Assembly: GCA_903846015.1 (NCBI GenBank) | Contig: CAIMZS010000639.1 | Location: 1 to 40,069 of the forward strand | DNA from: an uncultured Anaerolineae bacterium | GTDB lineage: Bacteria > Chloroflexota > Anaerolineae > Anaerolineales > Villigracilaceae | Length of the DNA stretch: 40,069 nt | Reading direction: 5' to 3' | Shown: one piece after another, positions 5,797-23,766 of the stretch | Position numbering within the stretch: position 1 is the first letter of the stretch | Layout: every line of letters begins with the position of its first letter | Notes under the pieces: generated by a model | The model's database searches: none | What the model was told of the DNA's origin: nothing | What the model saw: the letters and a program-made list of their open reading frames with translations, nothing else | Position numbers and translations under genes: made by a program

Positions 5797-6621
5797 ATGG
5801 GTAAGAAAGTTTTGGTTTGTATTTCTGAATATGGTTATTGGGGCGAAGAATTGGTTGGCCCGCTGGATGTTCTTGATGCCAAAGGTTACCAAACGGTTTT
5901 CATGACATCCAAAGGCAACCGCGCCCATGCCCTTCCGCCCAGCGCCGAAGCGGGCTATTTTGATCCGCCGCTCCACAAAGTCGTCACCGATGAATATTAT
6001 GCCGCGAAGACACGTGAAATTGATGGCTCCACTCGCCTTGATAATCCCATCAATCTTTCCACGTGGTTCCCGGTGCGGCCATTTTTCAACTCGCCAAATT
6101 TCGGGCCAGCCCTTGAAGCCTATTACACCAAGCGCGATGAGTGTTGGAAGCAATTGGCGGAGTATGATGCCCTTCTGCTGCCTGGTGGCAGCGGCCCCAT
6201 GATCGATATGGTCAATAATCAGCAGCTTCATGATGTGATTCTGGGATTTGTAGCCCAGAATAAGTTGGTTGCAGCCGAATGTTACTGCGTTACCTGCCTG
6301 GCTTTTGCGCGCGATTGGACTGACCGAAAAAGCATCATCCTGGGTAAACACGTCACCGGTCATGCCCTCGAATACGATTACAAAGATGGTACCGGTGTTC
6401 TCGGAATTGATGCAAACTTCGGACCCCCTTTCTACCCATTGGAGTTGATATTGCGCGATGCTGTTGGTCCAAATGGGCAATATCACGGTGGGGTTGGTCG
6501 CACGATTTCCACCATACTTGATTACCCCTTCCTCACGGGTCGTTCAACCCAGGATTCCAGATTGGTTGGCGAACTGATGGTTGAATCACTCGAAAAAGGC
6601 CTGAAGCGTTACGGCTGGTAA
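5797..6621 (+). CDS. DJ-1/PfpI-superfamily protein (class I glutamine-amidotransferase-like)
   Basis: The ATG has an excellent GGAGG six bases upstream. The fold is recognisable from KKVLVCISEYGYWGEELVGP at the start (Glu17/Glu18 are candidate acid residues), DALLLPGGSGP at about 124-134, and the nucleophile-elbow region LVAAECYCVTCL (158-168). The nucleophile would be Cys162, aligned with the AAICHG motif of Hsp31/PfpI proteins, but the following His-Gly is replaced by Tyr-Cys. At 274 residues it is long like the Hsp31 type rather than the 165-residue PfpI type. Family members include glyoxalase III-like enzymes, chaperones and isonitrile hydratases. It heads the plus-strand run, and a second member lies at 16950. 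The substrate is unknown. Confidence 0.85.
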   Translation: MGKKVLVCISEYGYWGEELVGPLDVLDAKGYQTVFMTSKGNRAHALPPSAEAGYFDPPLHKVVTDEYYAAKTREIDGSTRLDNPINLSTWFPVRPFFNSPNFGPALEAYYTKRDECWKQLAEYDALLLPGGSGPMIDMVNNQQLHDVILGFVAQNKLVAAECYCVTCLAFARDWTDRKSIILGKHVTGHALEYDYKDGTGVLGIDANFGPPFYPLELILRDAVGPNGQYHGGVGRTISTILDYPFLTGRSTQDSRLVGELMVESLEKGLKRYGW

Positions 6622-6770: not shown

Positions 6771-8477
6771 ATGACTCAGAAAACTGGCCGATATTCAATC
6801 ATTGAACAGTGCTTGGCCGATGGCATGACGCATATGTTTGGCAATCCCGGAACCGTGGAACAGGGCTTCCTGGATGCGCTGTCAAGTTATCCGCAAATGA
6901 AATACATCCTCACTTTGCAGGAAACGGTGGCGGTCATGGCTGCGGACGGTTATGCGCGAGCGACCAAGAAACCTACCCTGGTCCAGTTGCATTCCTCGCC
7001 CGGCATTGGCAACGCAGTGGGATCTTTGTATCAGGCCAAGCGAGGTCATTCGCCGCTGGTGGTGATTGGCGGCGATTCTGGGGTCAAGTATATGAACATG
7101 GATGCCCAAATGGCGGGCGATTTGGTCGCGATGATGGAGCCAGTCACCAAATACGCCACCACAGTCCTGCATCCCGCTTCGCTGTTGCGGACTTTGCGCC
7201 GGGCGATCAAAATTGCTGCGACCCCGCCCCTGGGGCCAGTTTACATCTGCCTGCCCCAGGATATCCTGGATGCAGTTGTCTCTGAAGAAGTTTTCCCAAC
7301 CCTGATTCCCTCAACCCGGGTTGTGCCCGAGACTGCCACCATCCGCCGGATGGCTGAAGGTCTGGCCGCGGCCAAAAAACCGGTCATTTTTATCGGCGAT
7401 GGCGTTGCCTATTCAGGCGCTTCCGCTGAACTGACGAGAGTGGCTGAGCTGTTGGGCGCAGAGGTCTGGGAAGCCGATTCGGGTGAATTGAACATGTCTT
7501 ACGCTCATCCGTTGTATATGGGCATGACTGGGCACATGTTTGGCAAGAACAGCCTGCCTCTGTTGCAAAAGGCGGATGCCAACCTGATCGTTGGAACCTA
7601 TATCTTGCCTGAAGTCTTCCCGGAATTGGGCGAAGTCTTTGCCAAAAATGCTCAGGTTTATCACATCGATCTGAATGCCTACGAAATTGGCAAGAATCAC
7701 CGCGTGGATCTTGGCGTGGTTGCTGATCCCAAGCTGACGCTGGCGCTTCTGGCCCAGGCGCTGGAAGAAATGCTGACCAAAGAGCAAAAAAGCTCCGCTA
7801 AAGCCCGCACCAAGGAAATTGGCTCAGCCAAAGCTGACAAGCGATCTGCTGCCCTTGAAGCTGATCGTGCCAACCGTGAGTCCGTGCCACTCAAGATGAC
7901 ACGCTTTATGGAAGAGCTGGCTCCCCAACTGCCTACGGATGCGATCATCTTCGATGAAGCCCTGACCAGTTCACCGGCAGTTGTGCGTTATTTCCCCCCT
8001 ACCGAAAGCGGCCAATATTTCCTGACCCGCGGCGGTTCATTAGGCGTGGGTATTCCTGGCGCGATTGGTGCAAAGCTTGCTAATCCGGATAAGACGGTAA
8101 TTGGTTTTACCGGCGACGGTGGCAGCATGTACACCATCCAGGCTCTGTGGACTGCGGCGCGTCATAATGTCAATGCCAAATTTGTGATTTGCAACAATGC
8201 TTCGTATCGTCTTTTGCAGCTCAATATCGATGAATACTGGAAAGAGCAAAATATTCCCAAACACGATTTTCCCATGAGCTTCGATCTTTCTTATCCGCAG
8301 CTGCATTTTGCTGAAATCGCAAAAGGAATGGGCGTCACAGGTTTGCGAGTTGAGAAACCCTGGGAAATCGCCCCGGCTGTCCAGCAGATGCTGGCTGCAC
8401 CAGGTCCGTTTCTGATTGACCTGGTACTCGAATCCGATACTCATCCCGAACGGGTGGGCAACACCTGTGGACAATAA
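6771..8477 (+). CDS. ThDP-dependent enzyme of the benzoylformate decarboxylase type
   Basis: The 568-residue protein shows the full three-domain layout of ThDP decarboxylases. The N-terminal Pyr domain has HMFGNPGTVE (21-30), the cofactor-activating Glu51 in LQETVAVMAADGYAR, and His74 in QLHSSPGIGNAVG, which aligns with His70 of Pseudomonas benzoylformate decarboxylase. The middle domain is NAD/FAD-like without clear cofactor contacts. The C-terminal PP domain has GDG (448-450) and the paired Asn475-Asn476 that define the ThDP/Mg site. The second active-site His of benzoylformate decarboxylase (His281) appears absent; the equivalent stretch reads GTYILPEVFPE. A Lys/Ala/Arg-rich insert at about 338-365 is unusual. 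Decarboxylation or carboligation of a 2-oxo acid is likely, substrate unknown. Its stop lies five bases before the next start. Confidence 0.88.
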   Translation: MTQKTGRYSIIEQCLADGMTHMFGNPGTVEQGFLDALSSYPQMKYILTLQETVAVMAADGYARATKKPTLVQLHSSPGIGNAVGSLYQAKRGHSPLVVIGGDSGVKYMNMDAQMAGDLVAMMEPVTKYATTVLHPASLLRTLRRAIKIAATPPLGPVYICLPQDILDAVVSEEVFPTLIPSTRVVPETATIRRMAEGLAAAKKPVIFIGDGVAYSGASAELTRVAELLGAEVWEADSGELNMSYAHPLYMGMTGHMFGKNSLPLLQKADANLIVGTYILPEVFPELGEVFAKNAQVYHIDLNAYEIGKNHRVDLGVVADPKLTLALLAQALEEMLTKEQKSSAKARTKEIGSAKADKRSAALEADRANRESVPLKMTRFMEELAPQLPTDAIIFDEALTSSPAVVRYFPPTESGQYFLTRGGSLGVGIPGAIGAKLANPDKTVIGFTGDGGSMYTIQALWTAARHNVNAKFVICNNASYRLLQLNIDEYWKEQNIPKHDFPMSFDLSYPQLHFAEIAKGMGVTGLRVEKPWEIAPAVQQMLAAPGPFLIDLVLESDTHPERVGNTCGQ

Positions 8478-8481
8478 AAAT

Positions 8482-8895
8482 ATGGACAATAGTACCCCCG
8501 GCCATGCTAGAACCGGCACTATCGACCGTGCTGGAACCGGTACTATCGGAAAAACTTTTTACAACCGCCAGGTAGCTTTCCTTGAAGCCCATGATGTCGA
8601 GGGTCTGATTGCATCGCAATATGCCCCTGATGCGGAACTGGTTGGCTACGATCTGCATGTGCAAGGTACACAGGCCCTGATCAAACACTTTACTGGCTAT
8701 CTAGGACAGTTGGGCAGTCTCAAGTTGATTTCGACCGATAAGTTTATGGAAATCGAAAATGCCATTATGTTCGAAGCCAGCATTCAGGTGGCGGCAGGTG
8801 TGGCGCGTGTTTATGACACCTTTGTGCTGAAGGATGGGAAAGCCATCTACCACTTTACCGGCATGCTCGGTTTTTCGCCCAATCCCGTGCAGTAA
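8482..8895 (+). CDS. NTF2-fold (SnoaL-like) protein with a repeat-encoded N-terminus
   Basis: The small alpha+beta protein begins at ATG 8482, five bases after the ThDP gene; an in-frame GTG at 8467 would overlap that gene and has a GGTGGG upstream, so the start is uncertain. Residues about 7-23 (PGHARTGTID then RAGTGTIG) are the translation of two tandem copies of the dispersed repeat. The domain proper begins at about FYNRQVAFLEAHDVEGLIASQY, a typical NTF2/SnoaL first helix, and continues to GKAIYHFTGMLGF. Either the repeat was inserted into the N-terminus, or it displaced the original start and translation now begins within or before it. It is the first of twelve NTF2-fold domains in a row; the fold covers cyclases, isomerases and binding proteins. 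Confidence 0.72.
   Translation: MDNSTPGHARTGTIDRAGTGTIGKTFYNRQVAFLEAHDVEGLIASQYAPDAELVGYDLHVQGTQALIKHFTGYLGQLGSLKLISTDKFMEIENAIMFEASIQVAAGVARVYDTFVLKDGKAIYHFTGMLGFSPNPVQ
8500..8549 (+). repeat. Tandem pair of family A repeats, translated
   Basis: Two direct copies (8500-8524 and 8525-8549) differ at a few positions (CTAG versus CTGG, GGCAC versus GGTAC). Both are read in the ARTGTI frame. Confidence 0.82.
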
Positions 8896-8932
8896 TCGGG
8901 ACTAATTTAAAAGACATAAGAGGAGTGGCAAG

Positions 8933-9376
8933 ATGAGCAAGATTACAGATCAGCAAATTCAAGATTTTGTCGCCGCCTGGTATCAGGCGCTGGACTTTCA
9001 TATTCCGATCGAGCAGGTTTATCCTTTGTTGGCTCAGGAAGGTCTGGTGATGTCGTTCCCGGATGGCGATATTAAGGATAAGGCCTCGTTCAAGGTTTGG
9101 TACGACCGTGTTACTAACATCTTCTTCGATGAAAACCACTTTGTGAATGAAGTCAAAATTACCCCCCAGGGCAGTGAATTTGTCCTGGATATTATCGTTG
9201 GTTGGCAGGCTTCGTGGTGGATTGCCCCGCAGCCCAAGAGCAAACGAGTTTCGATGGATGCAACCCAGCGTTGGGTTGTTCGTGCCAGCAGCCAGAATGC
9301 ATTTGGATTGGAAATTGTTTCCTACAACGCCACGGTTGAACCTTTCAAATACTCCCCAGGTTTTGCAAGGCTTTAA
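8933..9376 (+). CDS. NTF2-fold (SnoaL-like) small protein
   Basis: The start has GAGGAG upstream. At 147 residues it has the length of a single NTF2-fold domain. An N-terminal amphipathic helix (ITDQQIQDFVAAWYQALDFH) leads into YPLLAQEGLVMSFPDG, which corresponds to the helix-strand junction where SnoaL-like proteins place the ligand pocket. The later strand VLDIIVGWQASWWI is rich in aromatic residues that would line such a pocket. I cannot name the ligand or reaction. It lies 37 bases after the previous NTF2 gene on the same strand. It belongs to a divergent subgroup that lacks the GTHxG motif of the ester-cyclase-like members further on. Confidence 0.72.
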   Translation: MSKITDQQIQDFVAAWYQALDFHIPIEQVYPLLAQEGLVMSFPDGDIKDKASFKVWYDRVTNIFFDENHFVNEVKITPQGSEFVLDIIVGWQASWWIAPQPKSKRVSMDATQRWVVRASSQNAFGLEIVSYNATVEPFKYSPGFARL

Positions 9377-9449
9377 TTTTTGCAAGGCTTTAACCCTTTG
9401 ACCTCATAAGGGTGTTTGTTCAAAAGACATAACTATTTATAAGGCTCTG

Positions 9450-9470
9450 GCACAGCGATTTATCGCCGTG
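9450..9470. repeat. Family B palindrome copy
   Basis: GCACAGCGATTTATCGCCGTG is an imperfect copy of the ACGGCGATTTATCGCCGT palindrome, located 33 bases before the next start. Confidence 0.7.
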
Positions 9471-9502
9471 AAACGAGATTGAACCATTACAAGGAGAAAA
9501 AA

Positions 9503-9925
9503 ATGGATAACACTCAGATCGTTTTTCGTATGTATGAACTGTTCGGCAAGGGTGATATGGCAACCATGAAAAGTGAAGTGATGCATCCCGATGTAAGCTG
9601 GACGATGCCGGGGCATCACCCCATGTCTGGCCGCATGGAAGGCGTGGATTCAGTTTTGGCTTTTCTGGGCGCGCTTTTCAAAGCCGGTATCGTGGTCGAT
9701 CACGTTCACTTTGGCCTCTTGGATGACGGCACCGTGATTGAGAAGCACATGGGACACGGCAGGATCGGGGGCGAACAGTTTGATTTCCCCACCTGCACTT
9801 CCTATGGCATTAAGGATGGCAAGCTTTTTGATGTGCATGTTCACACTGGCGACCAGCACAACGTGGACCGTTATTTTTGGAACGTTTTCAAATTGAAGGG
9901 TATCCCTGCTCGCCTGGCTGACTAA
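9503..9925 (+). CDS. SnoaL-like NTF2-fold protein
   Basis: ATG 9503 is preferred over the in-frame ATG 9479 because AAGGAG lies just before it. The sequence MDNTQIVFRMYELFGKGDMATM followed by HPDVSWTMPGHHPMSG is classic for SnoaL-like proteins (a helix with a small-loop-GD pattern, then the strand and PG motif). MEGVDSVLAFLGAL matches the usual G-xx-v-xxFl helix. FPTCTSYGIKDGKLFDVHVHTGD forms the last strands, with His residues that could act in the pocket. The product is 140 residues, a complete single domain. Such proteins include polyketide cyclases, limonene-epoxide-hydrolase-like and ketosteroid-isomerase-like enzymes; which applies here is not decidable. Confidence 0.82.
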   Translation: MDNTQIVFRMYELFGKGDMATMKSEVMHPDVSWTMPGHHPMSGRMEGVDSVLAFLGALFKAGIVVDHVHFGLLDDGTVIEKHMGHGRIGGEQFDFPTCTSYGIKDGKLFDVHVHTGDQHNVDRYFWNVFKLKGIPARLAD

Positions 9926-9935
9926 GCTGGCGAAT

Positions 9936-10024
9936 GGCCGTGATAGAACCGGCACTTTCGTCTCGTGCAGGAACCGGGACTATCGTGATATGGTACCCGG
10001 TTCTGCACAGGCACAGGCACAGGC
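9936..10024 (+). repeat. Composite dispersed repeat with a hexanucleotide run
   Basis: Two family A copies (9936-9960 and 9961-9985) are followed by an inverted variant at 9986-10005 (GGTACCCGGTTCTGCAC) and a GCACAG hexamer run to 10024. It fills the whole gap between two NTF2 genes and ends at the next ribosome-binding site. Confidence 0.78.
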
Positions 10025-10036
10025 AAAGGAGATAGG

Positions 10037-10489
10037 ATGGCTACAGTTAAAGCAGTTATTACCCCTGAACATGTAAAAGAAGCTTATGCCGCTTTGGCCT
10101 CTGGCGATACACAGAAGGTGAGGCAGTATTGGGCAGATGAAATGGTCTGGCAGGTGCCGGGACATAACCTGCTCTCAGGTTGGTATTTTGGCCTGGACGA
10201 ATTCCTGGGATTTATGGGCACCGTTGGTCAGCTTTCCGGGAACAGCTTTCAGATGGAAAACATCGCCGGGCAGGTGATCGTGACGGGCGAGTATTCGGCA
10301 GACTTGACCCGCAACCGCGGCAATCGCGCAAACTTGCCTGATAAGCAAATGGATATTGAAGTGGTGCATGTTTTGCGCTGGAAAGATGGAAAAGTGATCG
10401 CTGGCAAGGGTGCTATCTTTGGCGATGGCGCTACAGAGTATGACCAGTTTTGGTCGAATTCACCGGCTGTGACCCCGCCGACCCATTGA
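10037..10489 (+). CDS. SnoaL-like NTF2-fold protein, close paralogue of the C-terminal domain at 11450-12757
   Basis: The start has AAAGGAG at 10024-10030. The 150-residue product is a single domain with ITPEHVKEAYAALASGD, EMVWQVPGHNLLSGWY, the FMG helix, and HVLRWKDGKVIAGKGAIFGD as the last strands. About three quarters of the residues, by eye, are identical to residues about 287-435 of the FHA-containing protein encoded 1 kb downstream, including the C-terminal tail TEYDQFWS-SP-VTPP-H. That similarity points to a recent local duplication. The repeat element at 9936-10024 ends immediately before its ribosome site. Reaction and ligand are unknown. Confidence 0.85.
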   Translation: MATVKAVITPEHVKEAYAALASGDTQKVRQYWADEMVWQVPGHNLLSGWYFGLDEFLGFMGTVGQLSGNSFQMENIAGQVIVTGEYSADLTRNRGNRANLPDKQMDIEVVHVLRWKDGKVIAGKGAIFGDGATEYDQFWSNSPAVTPPTH

Positions 10490-10491
10490 TA

Positions 10492-10950
10492 ATGATAATC
10501 CATAACGCGGATTCCTTTAAGTCTATCGGCGGAAACAAGGCTGTACTGGCCCGTCATTTTACGGAAGTGTTGAACCAGGGCCATTTGGATGTCATCGACG
10601 AAATCTACACCAGCGACTACGTCCTGGACGCGCCCGTGCAGTCAGACGGCAGCTCCCAGGCCCGTGGATTGACACACGGCCGCGAACAATTGAAACAAAG
10701 AGTGACCTTGTTCCGCACAGCCTTTCCAGATATCCAGTTTACACAGGATGAGGTTGTCGGTGAAGATGATACCGTCGTGGTGCGCTACACCTACCGCGGC
10801 ACCCACCAGGGCGTTTTTGCCGGGGTGCAACCCAGCGGTCACTCAATCGCTATCCCAGGTATCCTGGTCGCTCACCTGACAAATGGAAAAATTTGGCAGG
10901 CGATCAGCGCCTTTGATAGCGCGGAATTAATGAAACAACTTGGTAATTAA
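10492..10950 (+). CDS. SnoaL-like ester-cyclase-type protein
   Basis: The ATG at 10492 follows the previous TGA by two bases, suggesting translational coupling; an in-frame TTG at 10486 is an alternative and neither has its own ribosome site. The 152-residue protein has the consensus of the PF07366 SnoaL/ester cyclase family: a first helix (VLARHFTEVLNQGHLDVIDEIY), RTAFPDIQFTQDEVVGEDDTVVVRYTYRGTH, then GVFAGVQPSGHSIAIPGI and a final strand LTNGKIWQAISAFD. In SnoaL itself this fold catalyses ring closure by an aldol step in nogalamycin synthesis. No polyketide synthase is present here, so a different substrate is likely. Confidence 0.86.
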   Translation: MIIHNADSFKSIGGNKAVLARHFTEVLNQGHLDVIDEIYTSDYVLDAPVQSDGSSQARGLTHGREQLKQRVTLFRTAFPDIQFTQDEVVGEDDTVVVRYTYRGTHQGVFAGVQPSGHSIAIPGILVAHLTNGKIWQAISAFDSAELMKQLGN

Positions 10951-10966
10951 TCAATCGCCCCCAGAT

Positions 10967-11046
10967 AGCACGGTGATTTATCGCCGCCCCCTGGCGCCTA
11001 TGTAAATTCGCCCTACAAGCCGGACACAGCAGTGCTGTGTCCCTAC
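10967..11046. repeat. Family B palindrome copy plus a perfect 21-base palindrome
   Basis: AGCACGGTGATTTATCGCCG (10967-10986) is a family B copy. GGACACAGCA and TGCTGTGTCC (11022-11042) are perfect 10-base inverted arms around one G. Together they occupy the gap before the tautomerase gene. The hairpin is not followed by a T-run, so it is unlikely to be a classical terminator. Confidence 0.7.
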
Positions 11047-11062
11047 CTAATTAGGAGAAAAA

Positions 11063-11410
11063 ATGCCAATTATCACAATTCAGGTTATTGAGGGCGTGGT
11101 GCTGACCAGCCCTGAGCAGAAGCGCGACCTGCTCAAAAAAATGACCGATACCTTTATCAGCGTGGTCGGCGATGTTGCCCGCCCATATACCTATTGCATC
11201 ATCCAGGAAACCCCGCCGATGGAATGGTCGATAGCAGGCGCACCCCTGCCCGACCTGCCCTTCTTGTATGGCCCTGATTATGCCGAAATGCATAAAAAGT
11301 CCAACGAGATCATGCGCAATTTCATCGAACACCAAACTAATAAAGGCGTAGCTCCCAGCGATCACAGTCACAGTTGGGATCACGCGCAAAATGTATGGGA
11401 AGGCAAGTAA
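11063..11410 (+). CDS. 4-oxalocrotonate tautomerase-family protein
   Basis: AGGAG precedes the start. After removal of Met the N-terminus is Pro (PIITIQVIEGVVLTSPEQKR), the catalytic base that defines the 4-oxalocrotonate tautomerase/MIF superfamily. The beta-alpha-beta unit (strand PIITIQVIEG, helix SPEQKRDLLKKMTDTFISVVG, strand YTYCIIQETPPMEWSIAG) is complete. The C-terminal half (LPDLPFLYGPDYAEMHKKSNEIMRN) is an extension beyond the usual 62-residue monomer, giving 115 residues. It would catalyse keto-enol tautomerisation or a related proton transfer. Its place amid SnoaL-like genes and a ThDP decarboxylase supports a small-molecule pathway using enolisable keto compounds, which is inference. 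Confidence 0.85.
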   Translation: MPIITIQVIEGVVLTSPEQKRDLLKKMTDTFISVVGDVARPYTYCIIQETPPMEWSIAGAPLPDLPFLYGPDYAEMHKKSNEIMRNFIEHQTNKGVAPSDHSHSWDHAQNVWEGK

Positions 11411-11449
11411 TGGTCTCGGTACCTGTTTGCCATCCTGAGGAGATATAAA

Positions 11450-12757
11450 GTGGCCGATACATTCCAAATCATTATTAAGAAGGGTCCTACCCCGGGACGT
11501 GTGTTTGAATTGACCCAGAGCGAAGTCAGCATGGGCCGCGAAGCGTCCAATATGCTTCATATCGAGGATCGGGCCTTATCACGTTCACACGCCCGTTTTA
11601 TTCGGAGCGCTTCCGGTTATTCCATCCAGGATCTGGGCTCCACCAATGGAACGTTTGTCAATGGAAACGTTACCAGCGGTGTGTATGTCTTGCAGAATGG
11701 CGACATTATCACGATGAGCGACGCCGTTGAGCTGGAATTCCGCAAAATTTCGACCGGCAGTGATCCCAATGCTACTTTTGTGATGCCGGTTCAGAAGAAA
11801 AACGATGCAACCGAGGTACTGCCTTCGCGCGCCGCTCTTCAGGCAGAGCTTTCCAGGGTCAAAACCGCAGGCCATGCCGAGGAACACCGGGTACTTTTCA
11901 GCCGCTGGTTTGAAGAGCTGTGGAACAAAAAGAATTATGAGATCACCAGGGAATTGGTAGCCTCCGAATTTACTGCGCATGGCGCTGGCGGGCAGGATAT
12001 AAAGCAAGGTCCCGATGGTGTTGCCGGCATGGTGAAGATCTGGCACGAGGCATTCCCGGATGGTCACATGACCATGGATGACATCGTTACAGAAGGGGAA
12101 ATGTCTTCCATCCGCATGACTTTCCGCGGTACGCATACCGGTGAGTTTTACGGCATCCCCGCCAGCAACAAATCTGTGGAAGTCACCTCCATCGGTATCG
12201 ACCGCGTCGTTGCTGGAAAGATCACCGAGGGCTGGGGCGAATTGAATATGCTTGGCATGATGCAGCAGATGGGCGCCAACCCAGGCCCGGATCAGGGTCC
12301 GAAGGAATTTGATATTGAAACATCGATCACTCCGGAGCACGTTGGCGAAGCTTATGCTGCCCTGAGCTCTGGCGATATGAATCAGATCAAGCAGTTCTGG
12401 GCCGAAGAAATGGTCTGGCAAGTGCCAGGTCACAATCAGCTTTCCGGCTGGTACTTAAATCGGGATGAATTCCTAGCCTTTATGGGTCAGGTCGGGGAGA
12501 TGTCGGATCACAGCTTCCACATGGATATGATCGCCGGGCGTGTCCTGGTAACCGGTGATTATTCGGTCGACTTGACCCGCAACCGCGGTCATAAAAAGGG
12601 CGAGCCGGATAAGACCATGGATATTGAAGTGGCGCATGTTTTACGTTGGCGTGATGGCAAGGTAATTGCTGGTAAGGGTGCCATTTTTGGCGACGGCGCA
12701 ACGGAATATGACCAGTTCTGGTCTCGTTCGCCGGTTGTTACTCCACCCAGCCATTAA
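11450..12757 (+). CDS. FHA domain fused to two SnoaL-like NTF2-fold domains
   Basis: Translation starts at GTG 11450, with GAGGAG seven bases upstream. Residues 5-100 are a complete FHA domain, with GR (29-30), SRSHAR (44-49) and the STNGTFVNG signature (64-72). Its fold binds phosphothreonine peptides. Residues about 140-270 are an ester-cyclase-type SnoaL domain (FRGTHTGEFYGIPASNKSVEVT). Residues about 287-435 are a second NTF2 domain nearly identical to the free-standing protein at 10037. I know of FHA fused to many domains but do not recall FHA joined to tandem SnoaL domains. The fusion suggests that phosphorylation, perhaps by a Ser/Thr kinase encoded elsewhere, localises or controls one enzyme of the array. 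No kinase is in the window. Confidence 0.9.
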   Translation: MADTFQIIIKKGPTPGRVFELTQSEVSMGREASNMLHIEDRALSRSHARFIRSASGYSIQDLGSTNGTFVNGNVTSGVYVLQNGDIITMSDAVELEFRKISTGSDPNATFVMPVQKKNDATEVLPSRAALQAELSRVKTAGHAEEHRVLFSRWFEELWNKKNYEITRELVASEFTAHGAGGQDIKQGPDGVAGMVKIWHEAFPDGHMTMDDIVTEGEMSSIRMTFRGTHTGEFYGIPASNKSVEVTSIGIDRVVAGKITEGWGELNMLGMMQQMGANPGPDQGPKEFDIETSITPEHVGEAYAALSSGDMNQIKQFWAEEMVWQVPGHNQLSGWYLNRDEFLAFMGQVGEMSDHSFHMDMIAGRVLVTGDYSVDLTRNRGHKKGEPDKTMDIEVAHVLRWRDGKVIAGKGAIFGDGATEYDQFWSRSPVVTPPSH

Positions 12758-12768
12758 GGAGAATTCGA

Positions 12769-13182
12769 ATGTCTATCGAACAAAATAAATTAATCATGCG
12801 CCGCATGATCGAAGAAGTCTGGAACCAGGGAAATATGGCGACTGCCGAAGAGTTGTTCGCCCCAGATCACACCAGTCCCAGCGCGCCGCAGTTACCTCCT
12901 GGCTCGGATGGCGTCAAGATGCTTGTCCAAATGTTCCGCGCAGCCATGCCCGATTATCAAATGAGCATTGATTTACTGGTTGCGGATGAAAACCAGGTGG
13001 TTGGACGCTTTACCCAAAGCGGCACCCACAGTGGTGGTGACTTGATGGGCATGAAGCCATCAGGTCGCAAGGCTACCTGGACCGAAATTGGCGTTCTCAG
13101 GATTGTGGACGGCAAGATCGCCGAGAGCTGGTACGAAGTTGACATGTTGAGCATGATGCAGCAATTAAACGGCTCCAAGTAA
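12769..13182 (+). CDS. SnoaL-like ester-cyclase-type protein
   Basis: AAGGAG precedes the ATG, 11 bases after the FHA gene, so the two are surely co-transcribed. The 137-residue protein is a compact family member: IMRRMIEEVWNQGNMATAEELFAPDH, FRAAMPDYQMSIDLLVADENQVVGRFTQSGTH, MGMKPSGRKATWTEIGVLRIVDGKIAESWYEVD and the C-terminal SMMQQL helix. The same SMMQQL/GMMQQM tail is found in the domains at 11450, 13308 and 14398, so these domains form one paralogous subgroup. The stop lies one base before a dispersed repeat. Confidence 0.86.
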   Translation: MSIEQNKLIMRRMIEEVWNQGNMATAEELFAPDHTSPSAPQLPPGSDGVKMLVQMFRAAMPDYQMSIDLLVADENQVVGRFTQSGTHSGGDLMGMKPSGRKATWTEIGVLRIVDGKIAESWYEVDMLSMMQQLNGSK

Positions 13183-13183
13183 C

Positions 13184-13280
13184 TGGCCGTGTCTGAACCG
13201 GCCCTGGCCCTGCTAGAATGGATACTATCGCAGATTAGTGCAAGTGCAAGTGTCAATGCTCGTGCAGAACCGGGTACCAT
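13184..13280 (+). repeat. Composite dispersed repeat (families A and C)
   Basis: It starts one base after a stop codon with TGGCCGTGTCTGAACCGG, continues with a family A core, then CGCAGATTAG, a GCAAGT hexamer run, and a GCAGAACCGGGTACCATT variant. It fills the gap between two SnoaL genes. Confidence 0.8.
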
Positions 13281-13307
13281 TATCAATCTTCAATTTTTGG
13301 AGCGTGA

Positions 13308-14345
13308 ATGAGCCCAGCACCCAAAAGAATTAACTATGTTGCCGAAATGATCTGGAATGGCACGGCAAAGCCGGGTATCACCTATACCGGCACTGGCCGG
13401 CCGCTGACCGTCAACGAAATGAAGGATGCCATGGTGCGCCTTTATGATGAGTCAAATAACGCCAATTTTAATGTCTTTGACGAGATGCTTTCCCCGGATT
13501 TTGTCAGTTACGGTGGGGCGGGTTTCCAGGATCTGGTTGGCGCCCAGGCGTTTCGGGATCTGTACACCCAATTTCTCACCAGCCTGCCCGACCTGCACTT
13601 CCGGGTTGATCAGGTGGTTGCCGAGGGCAACATGTGTGGCGTTCGTGGCCGGTTGAGCGGTACGCATAAGGGTAATTTCATGGGGTTTGCCCCTCCGACC
13701 GGAAGGTTTATCTCCTGGACGGGGACGGCGATCTTTCGCTTCGATCAAAACGGTTTCATGGATGCTCGTTGGCAGGAGTGGGATGGCTTGAGTGTCATGC
13801 AGCAAATGGGTGTGATCCCAGCCCCGGCATTACCGCAAGGTACCAACTTTGCCCCACAGCCCGAGCCAATTCCACCGGCCCTGCTAGAACGGGCACTATC
13901 GCATGCAGTCGGTTATTCATCGCCGGTTCATCACAAACGGGCCATGCGCCGCCTTATCGAAGAAGTTTTTAACGGCGGCAACCTCTCGATCGCTAACGAT
14001 ATCTATCACCCAGAAGCGACTTACCCTTCTCAACCTGATATTCCAGTCGGGAGCGAAGGCATCCGAACAATTTTGAACATGTACCAACGCGCTATGCCCG
14101 ATTTCCATGTTGATGTGAAAAGCATGATTACTGATGGTGATATGGTGCTGACATGGTTGGCGCAAAGCGGCACTCACAAGGGTGAACTCATGGGCGTGCA
14201 GCCTTCGGGTAAGAAGGTTAACTGGGGCCAGATTATTATCGCCCGCTTTGAAGGTGGAAAAATTGTTGAAAGCTGGAGTAATGAAGACATCCTGGGGCTG
14301 ATGCAGCAACTTGGCGTGGGCGGAGATGCTTCATCAGGTGCTTAA
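13308..14345 (+). CDS. Two tandem SnoaL-like domains joined by a repeat-encoded linker
   Basis: The start has GGAG upstream. Residues about 30-170 form one SnoaL-like domain (MKDAMVRLYDESNNANFNVFDEML, LSGTHKGNFMGFAPPTG, DGLSVMQQMG). Residues about 205-338 form a second (MRRLIEEVFNGGNLSIANDIY, AQSGTHKGELMGVQPSGKKV, DILGLMQQLG) that closely resembles the free-standing protein at 12769. The linker between them contains a family A repeat core read in a frame that gives PALLERALS. The intergenic spacer just upstream of this gene carries the same repeat. This makes it likely that two adjacent genes were fused through a repeat lying between them, or that the repeat inserted in the linker afterwards. 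Function beyond the fold is unknown. Confidence 0.88.
   Translation: MSPAPKRINYVAEMIWNGTAKPGITYTGTGRPLTVNEMKDAMVRLYDESNNANFNVFDEMLSPDFVSYGGAGFQDLVGAQAFRDLYTQFLTSLPDLHFRVDQVVAEGNMCGVRGRLSGTHKGNFMGFAPPTGRFISWTGTAIFRFDQNGFMDARWQEWDGLSVMQQMGVIPAPALPQGTNFAPQPEPIPPALLERALSHAVGYSSPVHHKRAMRRLIEEVFNGGNLSIANDIYHPEATYPSQPDIPVGSEGIRTILNMYQRAMPDFHVDVKSMITDGDMVLTWLAQSGTHKGELMGVQPSGKKVNWGQIIIARFEGGKIVESWSNEDILGLMQQLGVGGDASSGA
13875..13902 (+). repeat. Family A repeat inside the two-domain SnoaL gene
   Basis: The core GGCCCTGCTAGAACGGGCAC (13878-13897) is translated in the fourth open frame (ALLERALS), different from the frames used at 2150, 8500 and 25666. Confidence 0.82.
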
Positions 14346-14352
14346 TTTTAAT

Positions 14353-14377
14353 GTCTGATCTCCCAAAGAGGTCAGAC
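14353..14377 (+). other. Intergenic hairpin between SnoaL genes
   Basis: GTCTGATCTC pairs with GAGGTCAGAC around the loop CCAAA, a 10-bp stem with one wobble. It has no T-run and sits 20 bases before the next start. It resembles the CTGATCTTACAAAAGAG segments at 1526 and 3091. Confidence 0.55.
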
Positions 14378-14397
14378 CAACAAAGGAATAAACTATT

Positions 14398-15282
14398 ATG
14401 ACTTCCAAAGAAAAAATGCGAGAAGCGGAAGCGATCTGGTCCAGCAGCACCACCACGCTTTCGCAGACTGAGGCACATATTAATACTGTGGCGCGCATCT
14501 GGAATGACGTCTGGAATAAAGGCGAAATGCAGGCTTCACACGAGATTTTCAGCAAGGATTACACCGGTCACCTGCCCCTGGTCACGATCCATGGGCCGGA
14601 TGAGTTCAATGGGCTGGTGGGGGTTTACCGTGCTGCTTTCCCGGATGTGCACCTGTCGGTCTATGATACCTTTGCCATTGGGGATCGTGTATCGGTGCGC
14701 TGGGTTTCACGTGGCACCCACTTAGCCGATATGATGGGCGTTCCGCCCAGTTTCAACAAGATCGAGGTCACAGGTCTATCCATCTTCCGCATGGAAAATG
14801 GCCTGGTGGCCGAGGAGTGGGAAAACTTCGATGCTCTGGGAATGATGCAGACCATTGGTGCCATCCCTGTCTCCGGTGTGCGCACCAGCCTGGCTGATAA
14901 CGGTGAGACCATCCGTAAATATTATGAATATGCCAATGACGGCAAATGGGATGCCTGGTGTGACCTGTTCACCGATGATATGGAGATGGATGAACAACTA
15001 GCTGGCAAGATAAACGGTCTTGCCACTTTGCGCCCAATGATGGCCGGAATGGGGCAGGCTTATGCCAGGTTCAGGAATGAGCTGCGCAGCATGCTGGTGG
15101 ATGGCGACAGTGGCGCGGTAGTTTCCCATATTTCAGCCGCGGCAGCCAGGTACCCCACTGAAGCGATTGAAGCCGATGTGATGAATTATTTCCGTTTTCG
15201 GAATGGCAAGATTTCTTACATGCGCAATGTGCATGATTCAAAGCCTTTTACTCCATTTTTGCGCCAGCTTGCGGGAGGTTAA
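14398..15282 (+). CDS. Two tandem SnoaL-like domains of different subtypes
   Basis: AAAGGA lies upstream of the ATG. Residues about 25-160 form an ester-cyclase-type domain (RIWNDVWNKGEMQASHEIFSKDY, YRAAFPDVHLSVYDTFAIGD, RGTHLADMMGVPPSF, DALGMMQTIG). Residues about 170-290 form a more divergent SnoaL-like domain (IRKYYEYANDGKWDAWCDLFTDDMEMDEQ, MNYFRFRNGKISYMRNVHD). The hydrophobic and acidic pocket residues differ between halves, so the two domains probably do not have the same ligand. The gene is followed two bases after its stop by the start of the GMC oxidoreductase, so tight co-translation is expected. This is the last of the twelve NTF2-fold domains. Confidence 0.86.
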   Translation: MTSKEKMREAEAIWSSSTTTLSQTEAHINTVARIWNDVWNKGEMQASHEIFSKDYTGHLPLVTIHGPDEFNGLVGVYRAAFPDVHLSVYDTFAIGDRVSVRWVSRGTHLADMMGVPPSFNKIEVTGLSIFRMENGLVAEEWENFDALGMMQTIGAIPVSGVRTSLADNGETIRKYYEYANDGKWDAWCDLFTDDMEMDEQLAGKINGLATLRPMMAGMGQAYARFRNELRSMLVDGDSGAVVSHISAAAARYPTEAIEADVMNYFRFRNGKISYMRNVHDSKPFTPFLRQLAGG

Positions 15283-15284
15283 CC

Positions 15285-16817
15285 ATGAGCGATTATGATT
15301 TTATTGTGGTTGGTGGAGGCTCAGCCGGTTCAGCAGTTGCTGCCAGGTTGAGCGAAAATATCAAATCCAGAGTACTTGTGCTGGAGGCTGGTGGAACCCA
15401 GATCGGTGCGAATGTTGAAAATCCGTCCATGTGGTTTACCCTGCTCGGGTCGGATATCGACTGGGGATATACGACCATCCCTCAGCCGGGGTTAAACAAC
15501 CGGGTGGTGTACGAACCACGCGGCAAGATTATCGGCGGTACCAGCCAGCTTTATCTGATGATGCACATTCGTGGTCATGCCTCGGATTATGACAATTGGG
15601 CCAGCATGGGCAATACCGGCTGGGGTTACAACGATGTGCTGCCGTATTTCAAGAAATTGGAAGACCAGGAAGATCGCACCAGCGACCTGGTGGGTCAGGG
15701 TGGCCCGCTGCATATCATTAACCCGAAGAATCACCAGCACCACCCGCTTTCCCCGGTTTTTCTGGATGCGTGCGCCGAATTGGGTTTCAGGCCGACTGAG
15801 GATTTCAACGGCCCGCAGATGGAAGGTTACGGCTGGCACCATGTCAATATCGGCAAGGATGGCAAGCGTAACAGCGATGCCGTGGCTTACTTGATCCCTG
15901 CCATGACCCGCGCCAACCTGACTGTATTTACCCACTGCCAGGCTACCCGGCTGCTCTTCAAGGGTAGGCGCTGCGTGGGCGTGGAATATGTTCAGAACGG
16001 CCAGCTTAAGAGCGTTTATGCCAATAATGAGGTGATCGTATCGCTGGGCGCGCTCGAATCGCCGCATTTGCTGCTTAATTCGGGTGTCGGTCCGATGGAC
16101 CAGCTCAAGCAGTTTGGCAAGCCGGTGGTGTTGAACATGCCGGGTGTTGGAGAGAATTACCACAATCACGTGTTGACCGGTGCGATCATGGAGACCCGCG
16201 AACCAGTTGCGGCAGGTCACCTGAACACATCCGAAGTCAGCCTGTTCACAAAATCTGACCCAAGTATGACTGTGCCTGATCTGCAGTTCAACTTTGTGCA
16301 TCTGCCCTTTGATGTGATTGTTGGGCAGGATAACCCGAATTCGGTCTCGCTGATTCCGGGTTTGCAGAAGCCGAAGTCGCGCGGCTGGGTGCGTCTGGGG
16401 AGCAGCGACCCGCTGCAGAAACCGCTGCTGAACCCGAACTATTTGGAACACGACGATGATGTGCGGCGTATGGTCATGATGACAGGCATGTGTCGTGAAA
16501 TCTTCAGTACGAAGGCTTTCTCGAAAGTGTTGACTGGCAAGGAATTGCTGCCGGGGCCGGATTATAAAACTGAAGCAGACCTGTACAAGTTTGTGCGCAC
16601 TCGCTGTGATTCATACCACCACCAGGTGGGTTCTTGCAAGATGGGCACTGACATTATGGCTGTAGTTGATCCCCAGCTAAAGGTTCACGGGCTGGAGGGA
16701 GTGCGGGTTATTGATGCGAGCATTATGCCCGAGATCAATACTGGTAATATTCACGCCCCCATTATGATGATCGCCGAAAAAGGCGCTGATATGATCCGCA
16801 AGGAATACGGTTTGTAG
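15285..16817 (+). CDS. GMC-family FAD-dependent oxidoreductase (choline dehydrogenase type)
   Basis: GGGAGG precedes the start, two bases after the previous stop. The 510-residue protein has the FAD-binding Rossmann motif GGGSAG (10-15) with Glu34 at the end of the second strand, and the GMC signature regions around PRGKIIGGTSQLY and GALESPHLLLNSGVG. The C-terminal active site carries the catalytic His446 in HQVGSCKMG. The second catalytic position, usually Asn in the TSGNTNAP motif, is His490 here (NTGNIHAP), a substitution known in some GMC branches. The usual Asn of the GGSSxxN motif is replaced by LY. It would oxidise an alcohol or a related CH-OH group with FAD. It probably acts on the pathway served by the neighbouring ThDP and SnoaL-like enzymes, which is inference. 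Confidence 0.92.
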   Translation: MSDYDFIVVGGGSAGSAVAARLSENIKSRVLVLEAGGTQIGANVENPSMWFTLLGSDIDWGYTTIPQPGLNNRVVYEPRGKIIGGTSQLYLMMHIRGHASDYDNWASMGNTGWGYNDVLPYFKKLEDQEDRTSDLVGQGGPLHIINPKNHQHHPLSPVFLDACAELGFRPTEDFNGPQMEGYGWHHVNIGKDGKRNSDAVAYLIPAMTRANLTVFTHCQATRLLFKGRRCVGVEYVQNGQLKSVYANNEVIVSLGALESPHLLLNSGVGPMDQLKQFGKPVVLNMPGVGENYHNHVLTGAIMETREPVAAGHLNTSEVSLFTKSDPSMTVPDLQFNFVHLPFDVIVGQDNPNSVSLIPGLQKPKSRGWVRLGSSDPLQKPLLNPNYLEHDDDVRRMVMMTGMCREIFSTKAFSKVLTGKELLPGPDYKTEADLYKFVRTRCDSYHHQVGSCKMGTDIMAVVDPQLKVHGLEGVRVIDASIMPEINTGNIHAPIMMIAEKGADMIRKEYGL

Positions 16818-16949: not shown

Positions 16950-17567
16950 ATGACGTTACAGGGCAAGAAGATTGGCATTTTGATTGAAGGCGATTATTAC
17001 GAGCCGGAGATTTGGTATTACAAACATCGCTTTGCGGAAGAGGAAATCGACCTGCACTTTTTGTCGCGCATGTGGGGCCAGACTTCTGCGGTGATGGCGG
17101 CCGGGTTCAAGGGTCATGAATATAAGATTCCCTTCGATGGCTATGTAGAAAGTTTTGAGGGAATGGATGATGCTGCGCTCAGGAGCTTTTCCGCCATCAT
17201 TGTTCCCGCCGGGATGGTGGCCGACCGGTTGCGCTATACCGAGGATGTCACCAAGCTGCCTCCCGCTACTGAGTTCCTGAAACGGGCGTTCGCCGAAAAG
17301 AGCATCTTGAAAGGCATTATTTGCCATGGGATGTGGTTGGCTGCGCCCGCTCCGGAATTGGTGCGCGGCCGCAAGGTGGTTGTGCATAATAATCTGATCG
17401 GTGATGCTCGTAATATGGGTGCTATTTATACCAACCAGGATGTTGTTGTGGATGGTGATCTTGTGACCGGGCGCACGGGTGGTCACTGTCACCAGTTTGC
17501 CCGCACCATTATCGATATGTTGGCAGGCGCGGGAAAAGCCGGCATTGGCATGCCAGGGCGTGTCTGA
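16950..17567 (+). CDS. DJ-1/PfpI-family protein
   Basis: GGAG lies upstream of the ATG. The 205-residue protein has the typical layout: KKIGILIEGDYYEPEIWYY at the N-terminus with Glu18/Glu20 near the active site, SAIIVPAGMVADRLR (81-95), and the nucleophile elbow KGIICHGMWLAAP with Cys125-His126-Gly127. The C-terminal third ends with DGDLVTGRTGGHCHQFARTII, as in PfpI-type enzymes. The final residues GRV and the TGA stop come from the start of a dispersed repeat, so the original C-terminus may have been altered by the insertion. It differs from the first DJ-1 gene (5797) in length and in keeping the His-Gly after the Cys. Proteolytic, glyoxalase and hydratase activities occur in this family. 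Confidence 0.86.
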   Translation: MTLQGKKIGILIEGDYYEPEIWYYKHRFAEEEIDLHFLSRMWGQTSAVMAAGFKGHEYKIPFDGYVESFEGMDDAALRSFSAIIVPAGMVADRLRYTEDVTKLPPATEFLKRAFAEKSILKGIICHGMWLAAPAPELVRGRKVVVHNNLIGDARNMGAIYTNQDVVVDGDLVTGRTGGHCHQFARTIIDMLAGAGKAGIGMPGRV

Positions 17568-17710: not shown

Positions 17711-18169
17711 ATGATTCCATTTTTTGAACCTGCAAAACAACGTGTTCCGACCTTTTTTTCTCATATCGGTATGACCTGCAAGGATCCGGCCAGCCAGGAA
17801 CGGTTTTATGCAAAGTACTTTGGCTTCCGGCGCGCGCGCGTCATTCCGTTGGGCGATGACCAGATCATCTTCATTAAGTCTGGAAATTTTTATATTGAGC
17901 TGTTCAAAGCCAGGGAGCAGTCGCCGATCGCCGACCCGAAGGATGACGGCTATCCGTGGTCCGGTCTGCGCCACCTGGCTTTTGAAGTTGAAAGCGTGGA
18001 TGCCAAGCTGGTTGAACTGGGCAGTTCTGTCAAGCTGATGTTGGGCCCGGCTGATTTTGGCGATTTTATCCCTGGTTGGAAGGGCGCCTGGGTTGCCGAT
18101 CCAGAAGGCAATATTATCGAATTAAATCAGGGCTATGTCGATCAGGCCCTGCCGCCCGCGCTGGCTTAG
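17711..18169 (+). CDS. VOC-superfamily (glyoxalase/bleomycin-resistance/dioxygenase fold) protein
   Basis: The 152-residue protein has the paired beta-alpha-beta-beta-beta units of the vicinal-oxygen-chelate fold. Candidate metal ligands are His18 (FFSHIGMTCKD), Glu63 (YIELFKA), His88 (GLRHLAFEVE) and Glu137 (PEGNIIELNQ), the standard spacing for glyoxalase I and related lyases or dioxygenases. The start at 17711 follows a repeat and has only a weak AAGGA ribosome site about 12 bases upstream. Its function could be isomerisation, epimerisation or resistance-type binding; the context of small-molecule enzymes favours an enzyme. It is followed 17 bases later by a membrane protein gene. Confidence 0.85.
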   Translation: MIPFFEPAKQRVPTFFSHIGMTCKDPASQERFYAKYFGFRRARVIPLGDDQIIFIKSGNFYIELFKAREQSPIADPKDDGYPWSGLRHLAFEVESVDAKLVELGSSVKLMLGPADFGDFIPGWKGAWVADPEGNIIELNQGYVDQALPPALA

Positions 18170-18185
18170 CTGGGAATTAGCGTTC

Positions 18186-18911
18186 ATGACCGTTGAAAAG
18201 ATACGCAAGCGCGCCACGTCTGCGGCTGTTCCCCGAAAGGGCCTTTCCGGGATGCTGCAATCGGTGACTTTTAACGTTTTTAGAGCCCAGGGCGCCGCTG
18301 ATAACGTGCGCCTGAACGCCATGAGTGATGGCGTTTTTGCCATCGTCATCACTTTGATGGTATTTTCGATCAAAATACCGGAAATCCCTGCCGGGCAGGC
18401 CGTCGCTGTGTTGCCATCAGCTTTACTGAAAATGCTGCCGGATTTTGGTATTTTGCTGCTCAGCTTTGTCGTGCTGGGAATTTATTGGATAGGCCATAAT
18501 AATGTTTTTTTGCACGTGCTTCGGCATGATCGCTTGATGCTGTGGATGAACATTTTTTTCCTCCTGATCGTGGCATTGATCCCTTTTCCTGCCGCGCTGC
18601 TTGTCCGTTATGGTGATGCGCAAATCTCGGTTGTTTTATATGCCCTGAATCTGCTGGTGGGAGGCGTACTCCTGGATCTGATCTGGGCTTATGCCACCTA
18701 CAATCGTCATCTGATGTGTGACAGTGTGCAGCCAAGATTGATCAATTCTTTCCATGTGCGCATTTTGACGGGTCCGGCTATTTATGCCGTTGCGATTGGT
18801 GTTTCTTTTATTAGCCTTTTGGCTGCCAAAATTTTGTTTGCTTTAGCAATTCTTTATTATCTGGTACCCACGGTGCAGGATTTACTGCATCACGAGCAGC
18901 TTAGTAATTAG
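18186..18911 (+). CDS. TMEM175-family (DUF1211) potassium-channel-like membrane protein
   Basis: ATG 18186 is chosen over the upstream in-frame ATG 18135, which would overlap the VOC gene. After an N-terminal tail of about 40 residues comes the family signature RLNAMSDGVFAIVITLMV (42-59), where the usual RxxxFSDGVFAI has Met for Phe. This motif lines the pore in bacterial TMEM175 K+ channels. Five further hydrophobic segments follow (LPDFGILLLSFVVLGIYWIG, LMLWMNIFFLLIVALIPFPA, VVLYALNLLVGGVLLDLIWA, AIYAVAIGVSFISLLA, LFALAILYYLV), giving the expected six-helix repeat. Homotetramer or dimer formation is known for the family. The link to the surrounding enzymes is unclear. Confidence 0.85.
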   Translation: MTVEKIRKRATSAAVPRKGLSGMLQSVTFNVFRAQGAADNVRLNAMSDGVFAIVITLMVFSIKIPEIPAGQAVAVLPSALLKMLPDFGILLLSFVVLGIYWIGHNNVFLHVLRHDRLMLWMNIFFLLIVALIPFPAALLVRYGDAQISVVLYALNLLVGGVLLDLIWAYATYNRHLMCDSVQPRLINSFHVRILTGPAIYAVAIGVSFISLLAAKILFALAILYYLVPTVQDLLHHEQLSN

Positions 18912-20786: not shown

Positions 20787-20795
20787 TGATCGATA
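20762..20795 (+). promoter_or_regulatory. Perfect 14-bp hairpin presenting the ribosome-binding site of the STAS gene
   Basis: TATCGATCATCATG (20762-20775) pairs perfectly with CATGATGATCGATA (20782-20795) around the six-base loop GGAGAT. The loop is the Shine-Dalgarno sequence, the stem's 3' arm contains both candidate ATG codons, and the upstream gene's TGA lies within it. Translation of the STAS protein would depend on ribosomes reading through the upstream gene or on melting of the stem. Confidence 0.7.
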
Positions 20796-21121
20796 TCGAC
20801 GTGGAAAAACATCAGGATGTGAGCGTGGTGAAGCTGGTTGGTGAAATTGATGCGGGTTCGGCCGCTTTAGTTCAGCAAAAAGTTCTGCCGCTTTCTCTCC
20901 CTGGTTGTAAGGTTATCCTTGACCTTTCAAAAGTGGCGTACATGTCAAGCGCTGGGCTGCGCATGCTTCTCTCAGTCTACCGCCAGATTTCAGGGAACCA
21001 GGGGAAAATTGTCCTGGTTGGGCTGTCCGAGGAGTTAACCGATACCATGTCGATGACCGGTTTCCTAGGATTTTTTACGGTGCAAGACACCCTGGATATG
21101 GGTCTCCAACTCTTTAATTAG
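20786..21121 (+). CDS. STAS-domain anti-sigma factor antagonist (SpoIIAA/RsbV-like)
   Basis: The ATG at 20786 gives a proper spacing of six bases to GGGAG and shares one base with the upstream TGA; the ATG at 20783 is too close. The product (111 residues) has the SpoIIAA fold: SVVKLVGEIDAGSA, CKVILDLSKVAYMSSAGLRMLLSVYRQI and IVLVGLSEELTDTMSMTGF. The phosphorylatable Ser aligned with SpoIIAA Ser58 is Ser55 in MSSAGL, and it would be the target of the RsbW-like kinase encoded at 23793. Dephosphorylation would fall to the SpoIIE phosphatase at 24285. The gene starts inside a hairpin that may couple its translation to the epimerase. Confidence 0.9.
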   Translation: MIDIDVEKHQDVSVVKLVGEIDAGSAALVQQKVLPLSLPGCKVILDLSKVAYMSSAGLRMLLSVYRQISGNQGKIVLVGLSEELTDTMSMTGFLGFFTVQDTLDMGLQLFN

Positions 21122-23427: not shown

Positions 23428-23766
23428 ATGGCATTTAAATCCGTTTTTGAAATTGTAAATGGTGTTGCAAAGATCACACTTTCCGGCGAATTGGACGCTG
23501 CTGTGGCCCCGGCCTTTCGCATCGACATTGAAAAAGCTGCGGCGGCCAAAGTAAAGGCAGTTGCCCTGGTGATGAAGGATCTGGAATATATGGCCAGCGC
23601 TGGTTTGCGGGCACTTGTTTTTGCCAAGCAAAAAATGGGCACACAAGTCGAGATCTACATGATCGGCCTGCAGGAAACCGTGATGGAAACGATCACGATG
23701 ACTGGCTTCCAGAATAGCGTCACATTTCTGGATGAATATGAGGCGGCCAGGATCGAGGGCGCTTAG
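23428..23766 (+). CDS. STAS-domain anti-sigma factor antagonist, second copy
   Basis: AAGGAG precedes the ATG. The 112-residue protein has the same fold as the STAS protein at 20786 (VAKITLSGELDAAVAPAF, VKAVALVMKDLEYMASAGLRALV, EIYMIGLQETVMETITMTGF). The acceptor Ser is Ser57 in MASAGL, aligned with SpoIIAA Ser58, with Ala in place of the usual preceding Asp. It lies 26 bases ahead of the anti-sigma kinase gene, so it is the likeliest cognate partner of that kinase. Why the run keeps two antagonists is unknown; they may serve different kinases or give graded responses. Confidence 0.9.
   Translation: MAFKSVFEIVNGVAKITLSGELDAAVAPAFRIDIEKAAAAKVKAVALVMKDLEYMASAGLRALVFAKQKMGTQVEIYMIGLQETVMETITMTGFQNSVTFLDEYEAARIEGA

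Follow-up and report, generated by a model that had tools for sequence, protein, structure and literature searches.

The window analysed here is a stretch of 40,069 nucleotides that makes up one whole contig (CAIMZS010000639.1; C639) of a Chloroflexota metagenome-assembled genome (MAG) of 6.5 Mb, assigned to an uncultured Anaerolineae bacterium. It carries a co-directional gene run at 5797-27689, within which nine genes encode an array of twelve NTF2-fold (SnoaL-like) domains, termed S1 to S12. The open reading frames of the array lie at 8482-15282, where a first-pass annotation of the sequence had placed them, all on the + strand. In gene order, five single-domain proteins are followed by a protein that joins an FHA domain to two NTF2 domains, and then by proteins with one, two and two domains. 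A tautomerase gene between S5 and FHA-S6-S7 is the single interruption, and the array is flanked by genes for a thiamine diphosphate (ThDP)-dependent enzyme and a GMC oxidoreductase. The gene and domain counts, the interruption and the flanks had all been proposed in the first-pass annotation and are borne out here, the domains by Pfam for ten of the twelve and by predicted structures for S1 and S2. The FHA domain and the icfG-type continuation of the cluster described below had been overlooked. The array and its nearest neighbours are as follows:

5797..6621, +, DJ1a, ThiJ_like/DJ-1/PfpI protein (Pfam PF17124, 78.6 bits; synteny)
6771..8477, +, ThDP-dependent enzyme, benzoylformate decarboxylase-like (Pfam TPP_enzyme N/M/C; benzoylformate decarboxylase structures)
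8482..8895, +, S1, predicted NTF2-fold protein of a core family, with a fold like that of ketosteroid isomerase, TerC and limonene epoxide hydrolase (AlphaFold2, Foldseek, orthologues)
8933..9376, +, S2, predicted NTF2-fold protein of a core family without Pfam match (AlphaFold2, Foldseek, orthologues, co-occurrence)
9503..9925, +, S3, NTF2-fold SnoaL_2 protein with a PGHH motif and conserved H/D/C residues (Pfam, 40.4 bits)
10037..10489, +, S4, NTF2-fold protein of the VWQVPGHN type, homologue of the pericyclases NgnD/StmD (phmmer, E 5e-26 to 6a5f)
10492..10950, +, S5, SnoaL PF07366 type (Pfam)
11063..11410, +, tautomerase-family protein with N-terminal Pro (PF01361, 30 bits)
11450..12757, +, FHA-S6-S7, FHA domain, SnoaL PF07366 domain S6 and S4 paralogue S7 (Pfam; D1/D4 repeats S4/S7)
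12769..13182, +, S8, SnoaL PF07366 type (Pfam)
13308..14345, +, S9-S10, pair of PF07366-type domains, the array's least conserved gene (Pfam, identity comparison)
14398..15282, +, S11-S12, PF07366-type S11 and core-family S12 with invariant DEQLAG, N and HD (Pfam, orthologues)
15285..16817, +, GMC oxidoreductase, choline oxidase/alcohol oxidase-like
16950..17567, +, DJ1b, DJ-1/PfpI protein
17711..18169, +, VOC/glyoxalase-type protein

Pfam SnoaL-type models support ten of the domains, six of which (S5, S6, S8, S9, S10 and S11) exceed the PF07366 cut-off; S1 scores too low for the Pfam cut-off, and no Pfam model matches S2. The AlphaFold2 models of S1 and S2 (pLDDT of 88 and 87, respectively) both show the NTF2 order a-a-b-b-a-b-b-b-b. 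Structural comparison using Foldseek placed S1 next to TerC, ketosteroid isomerase and limonene epoxide hydrolase as the nearest solved folds, at identities of ~13-23%, too low to assign a reaction, and matched S2 to the CaMKII hub (top), AclR and LinA. S1 and S2 are thus predicted to belong to the NTF2-like fold superfamily, as families that the Pfam models miss. Orthologue alignments revealed many invariant polar residues in S2, S3, S4 and S12, and most PF07366-type members keep TH, W and D. Seven of the ten PF07366 matches in the 6.5 Mb genome fall within 4.7 kb of the window; this clustering, together with the gene order kept in two other species, argues that the array is not a product of chance. 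The FHA domain, at the N-terminus of the sixth array gene, possesses the GR, SRxH and NG residues. It is followed (window 11450-11870) by two threonine motifs, ATFVMP and ATEVLP, which three species share with little or no change and which suggest a phospho-threonine switch.

The first-pass annotation had proposed a search for synteny of SnoaL-like genes with decarboxylase-like and GMC genes, and such synteny was found in two sister species and in other genomes. In sister species G001 the whole block from DJ1a to the response regulator-SpoIIE gene is syntenic; the same holds for G010, where the piece read ends inside that last gene. The shared order is DJ1a-ThDP-S1...S12-GMC-DJ1b-VOC-TMEM175-AGE-GlgX, at 55-92% amino-acid identity (91-92% for the tautomerase), with single-gene gains and losses such as the loss of S5 or S11. 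In codon comparisons with both sister species, which leave out S12 of G001 and GMC of G010 (apparent MAG frameshift), synonymous change is near saturation and amino-acid change is low, indicating that nearly all genes are under purifying selection. A genome of another, distant Chloroflexota family (G414) keeps the order S1-S2-S3-S4-tautomerase-S6-S8 on one contig and S9-S10-type genes-S12-GMC-DJ1b-VOC on a second. G010 also holds two more partial copies with fused S4-S5 genes (L024 and L025), in one of these, DJ1a and the remains of S3 are present, but the ThDP gene, S1 and S2 are missing ahead of S4.

A tree of the domains, built on few columns and poorly resolved at many deep forks, though with stars on most of the family clades, groups S1, S2, S3, S4/S7, S5, S6, S8/S10, S9 and S12 each into clades across genomes. 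By this tree the array appears to comprise at least six old NTF2 families; the number of subtypes, given earlier as three or more, was set too low. Since the clades span genomes, only S7 (from S4) and S10 (from an S8-like domain) look like duplicates that arose within the array. Duplication, one of the two origins suggested at first, therefore accounts for the pairs S4/S7 and S8/S10 and not for the rest, and simple tandem expansion was rejected on the same tree. Old families and an order kept in the sister species and in G414 point to an array that is old rather than recently expanded.

The cluster is widespread, though its occurrence is sporadic. Among 400 sampled Chloroflexota genomes, the ThDP enzyme occurs in 10 and S2 in seven, all of them within those 10 (hypergeometric 4e-13); strong matches to S12 fall in exactly the same seven. 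Among 72,556 plasmids, 14 (from Nostoc, Runella, Gemmobacter, Deinococcus and Streptomyces) carry the ThDP gene and five carry S2, again all among the 14, and S4 has no match there. DJ1a, which in the clusters read lies directly 5' of the ThDP gene, has no match in the phages searched. The number of NTF2 domains beside the ThDP gene varies: the window has 12, the sister species have ~10-11, Runella rosea has 10, Nostoc sp. C052 has four, and other Chloroflexota and Deinococcus have 2-3. The Runella rosea set is an independent ten-domain array between GMC and DJ1b-VOC-AGE; this species and Nostoc sp. C052 are among the cultured carriers. The S1, S2 and S12 families recur in Deinococcus or Nostoc clusters, and judged by this recurrence S1, S2 and S12 appear to be the core and S3-S11 optional. 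In Streptomyces, ~35-40 kb separate the S2 homologues from the ThDP gene and the genes around them are unrelated, so tight linkage fails there. Separate from these clusters, G233 has a second S2-family gene (L072, contig C183) whose surroundings, out to 1.5 kb, show no further recognisable cluster gene, and a plasmid of Deinococcus sp. KNUC1210 bears a further array of three two-domain SnoaL genes (L064, 10617-13689) between hisD and sugar ABC transporter genes, ~50 kb from its ThDP cluster. The Nostoc ATCC 53789 cluster contains two genes for Nif11-like leader peptide precursors between EthD and GMC (L026, 16543-17203).

The ThDP enzyme aligns with benzoylformate decarboxylase (BFD; MdlC) structures at E 2e-62 and shares the three TPP domains, but it scores under the NCBIfam BFD cut-off (310 versus 493 bits). 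Of the catalytic BFD residues S26, E47, H70 and H281, E47 and H70 are kept, whereas S26 is replaced by Thr and H281 by Val. The enzyme is BFD-like but short of two of the four BFD active-site residues. The GMC, DJ-1, VOC and tautomerase families around it commonly handle carbonyls. In family f41 a complete molybdenum hydroxylase of the xanthine dehydrogenase/aldehyde oxidase type is encoded between S1 and S2 (L053, 2361-6251; L054, 12822-16761), and in family f36 (L045) the same block includes an enzyme of the metallo-beta-lactamase (MBL) fold.

Downstream, the module runs into a second set of genes:

18135..18911, +, TMEM175-type potassium channel homologue (present in both sister species)
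18933..20786, +, N-acylglucosamine 2-epimerase-like (AGE-type) protein, start of the icfG-type backbone
20783..21121, +, STAS protein of the anti-sigma antagonist type
21161..23341, +, GlgX/isoamylase-type glycogen debranching enzyme
23428..23766, +, second STAS protein
23793..24215, +, RsbW/SpoIIAB-type HATPase_c_2 kinase
24285..25547, +, response regulator-SpoIIE protein (IcfG-type PP2C phosphatase)
25623..27689, +, amylo-alpha-1,6-glucosidase (GDE)

The block of AGE, two STAS, GlgX, SpoIIE phosphatase and RsbW kinase genes is found together in G312, G275, G319 and G361 as well. It resembles the icfG cluster of Synechocystis PCC 6803 (slr1852-slr1862), which comprises the epimerase slr1855, the anti-sigma antagonists slr1856 and slr1859, the isoamylase/GlgX slr1857, the phosphatase IcfG (slr1860) and the kinase slr1861, and which is tied to the control of carbon and glucose metabolism (PMC12329169; PMC8670252). 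AGE, STAS, GlgX, STAS, phosphatase and kinase genes are co-directional in both; in the window, however, the kinase gene precedes that of the phosphatase, the phosphatase has a receiver domain and a GDE gene follows. Compared to the window cluster, which has all three, the published descriptions consulted for the Synechocystis cluster list neither a ThDP enzyme nor an NTF2 array nor a GMC oxidoreductase. An icfG-type backbone and an enzymatic module are thus linked in the window, and the cluster reads less as polyketide-like than as part of carbon- or stress-linked metabolism. The Mycobacterium SigF regulon, considered as a parallel, is not relevant.

Two further features of the run stand apart. 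The TMEM175-type homologue is retained in the cluster within the genus, and both G361 and G081 have relatives close to their clusters. Moreover, an interspersed short repeat with the core CTAGAACNGGCACTATCG, sometimes in 24-bp tandem units, fills the operon spacers and lies in frame within the S1 N-terminus and the S9-S10 linker (window 6666, 6720, 8507, 8531, 9943, 13884, 16845, 17641, 23352, 24233, 25667 and others). It has 378 matches in the genome at no more than one mismatch, 0 in the control and none in the sister-species loci read.

We propose, at a probability of about 0.55, that the array is part of a conserved but sporadic metabolic module and that its NTF2 proteins are small enzymes with different functions in a single pathway. 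A real metabolic pathway is more probable here than a chance accumulation of duplicates, and the module, which comprises the ThDP enzyme, DJ-1, NTF2-fold proteins, GMC, a second DJ-1 and VOC joined to an icfG-type operon, has probably spread horizontally. The idea of cyclases or isomerases serving one pathway, raised in the first-pass annotation, is favoured by the ancient and distinct families, the fixed order and the strict co-occurrence of S2 and S12 with the ThDP gene in Chloroflexota; as a whole, that interpretation is partly supported. The ThDP enzyme would generate or couple aldehyde-like units, either by decarboxylating 2-oxo acids or by carboligation; oxidation of the resulting intermediates would fall to the GMC flavoenzyme (joined in one lineage by the molybdenum hydroxylase). 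Each NTF2 protein would most likely catalyse isomerisation, dehydration, hydrolysis or ring closure on reactive carbonyl intermediates, in an order of reactions that would need no polyketide synthase (PKS). The pathway may be switched on when stored glucan is mobilised, coupling it to glycogen flux under SpoIIE/RsbW/STAS control, with FHA-S6-S7 as a possible phospho-threonine-regulated member.

Several observations weigh against this proposal. The Gemmobacter and Streptomyces clusters read have the ThDP/DJ-1/AGE backbone with no adjoining NTF2 gene, so the backbone does not depend on the NTF2 set. S9-S10 is the fastest-evolving array gene (56-59% identity). Some orthologues (S5 and S6 of G010; S10 of G001 and G010) carry Gln in place of the PF07366-type His, and S5 of the window is without the usual Trp, so not every copy need be catalytic. 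The AlphaFold2 inputs comprised the window and genome orthologues, 7-8 rows only; the icfG likeness is drawn from protein families and published descriptions, not from aligned Synechocystis proteins; and the activities of all proteins here are predicted. The first-pass annotation had named, as grounds for abandoning its view, an absence of the synteny elsewhere together with degenerate pockets in most copies; these grounds do not apply, as the synteny does recur, although a few PF07366-type copies are without the usual His or Trp.

A module for reactive-carbonyl detoxification or stress is a possible, if rather unlikely, alternative. DJ-1, VOC and tautomerase would clear dicarbonyls and aldehydes arising from glycogen use, and the NTF2 proteins would hydrolyse, isomerise or sequester toxic intermediates, with no single product. 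The recurrence of two DJ-1/PfpI proteins and VOC, the MBL-fold and molybdenum hydroxylase genes of some lineages and the adjoining partner-switching genes are all consistent with it, and slr1854 of the Synechocystis cluster has been termed a general stress protein (PMC3726282). However, the fixed order, with core families mostly present once per cluster, looks like an ordered pathway. ThDP enzymes, moreover, are more likely to produce aldehydes than to remove them.

Alternatively, the array might be a largely non-catalytic ligand-binding or regulatory family, with NTF2 domains as binding or assembly modules and FHA-S6-S7 as a phospho-dependent hub. The FHA fusion with its conserved residues and threonine motifs in three species, the non-catalytic CaMKII hub as top fold match of S2, the variation of some catalytic-type residues and the several two-domain fusions agree with this. 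We consider it unlikely, as the array holds at least six separate families rather than one expansion, polar residues are strongly conserved and the closest relatives of S1, S4, S8 and S10 are enzymes.

S4/S7 are homologous in sequence to the bispericyclases StmD and NgnD of streptoseomycin and nargenicin and similar to them in length (over 134 residues for the S4 match). Of the key residues Y13, Y55, W67 and M69 (PMC11643694), S4 keeps Y13 and M69, along with P37, but has Phe at positions 55 and 67; N87 and I89 are replaced by Thr and Asn. An assignment of S4/S7 as StmD-type pericyclases was rejected on these replacements. The PF07366 members belong to the same family as the polyketide cyclases/hydroxylases SnoaL, SnoL and AclR, but they stand in an array of up to twelve NTF2 domains, and the second and fourth residues of the SnoL/AclR EHWD stretch are replaced in all window members. 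Neither the window, as had been noted at first, nor any of the clusters read contains a PKS gene, and no macrolide PKS lies beside S4/S7. Some type I PKS markers occur in G000, G312, G361 and G233, but none in the array-bearing G001, G010 and G414, and a type III marker is missing from six of seven genomes, with every array genome among the six. With two of four NgnD residues different, EHWD absent and PKS markers absent from three array genomes, a polyketide-cyclase reading in the functional sense was set aside; that the NTF2 proteins are tailoring cyclases acting in trans with a PKS encoded elsewhere, which their PF07366 and StmD-like relatives and the scattered type I markers might suggest, is for the same reasons very improbable.

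The proposed metabolic module is thus assembled from parts of known kinds, in a combination that we did not find described in the searchable literature, and contains the largest co-linear NTF2-fold set found in this analysis. In its fullest form, which we put forward only tentatively, it would be a PKS-independent biosynthetic pathway present in members of the Chloroflexota, Bacteroidota, Deinococcota and Cyanobacteria. As many as twelve NTF2-fold enzymes would work in succession on a ThDP-derived carbonyl scaffold from stored glucan, and SpoIIE/RsbW/STAS and an FHA-NTF2 protein that binds phospho-threonine would switch the pathway. If true, the little-understood icfG-type carbon-control operon would gain a concrete metabolic output.

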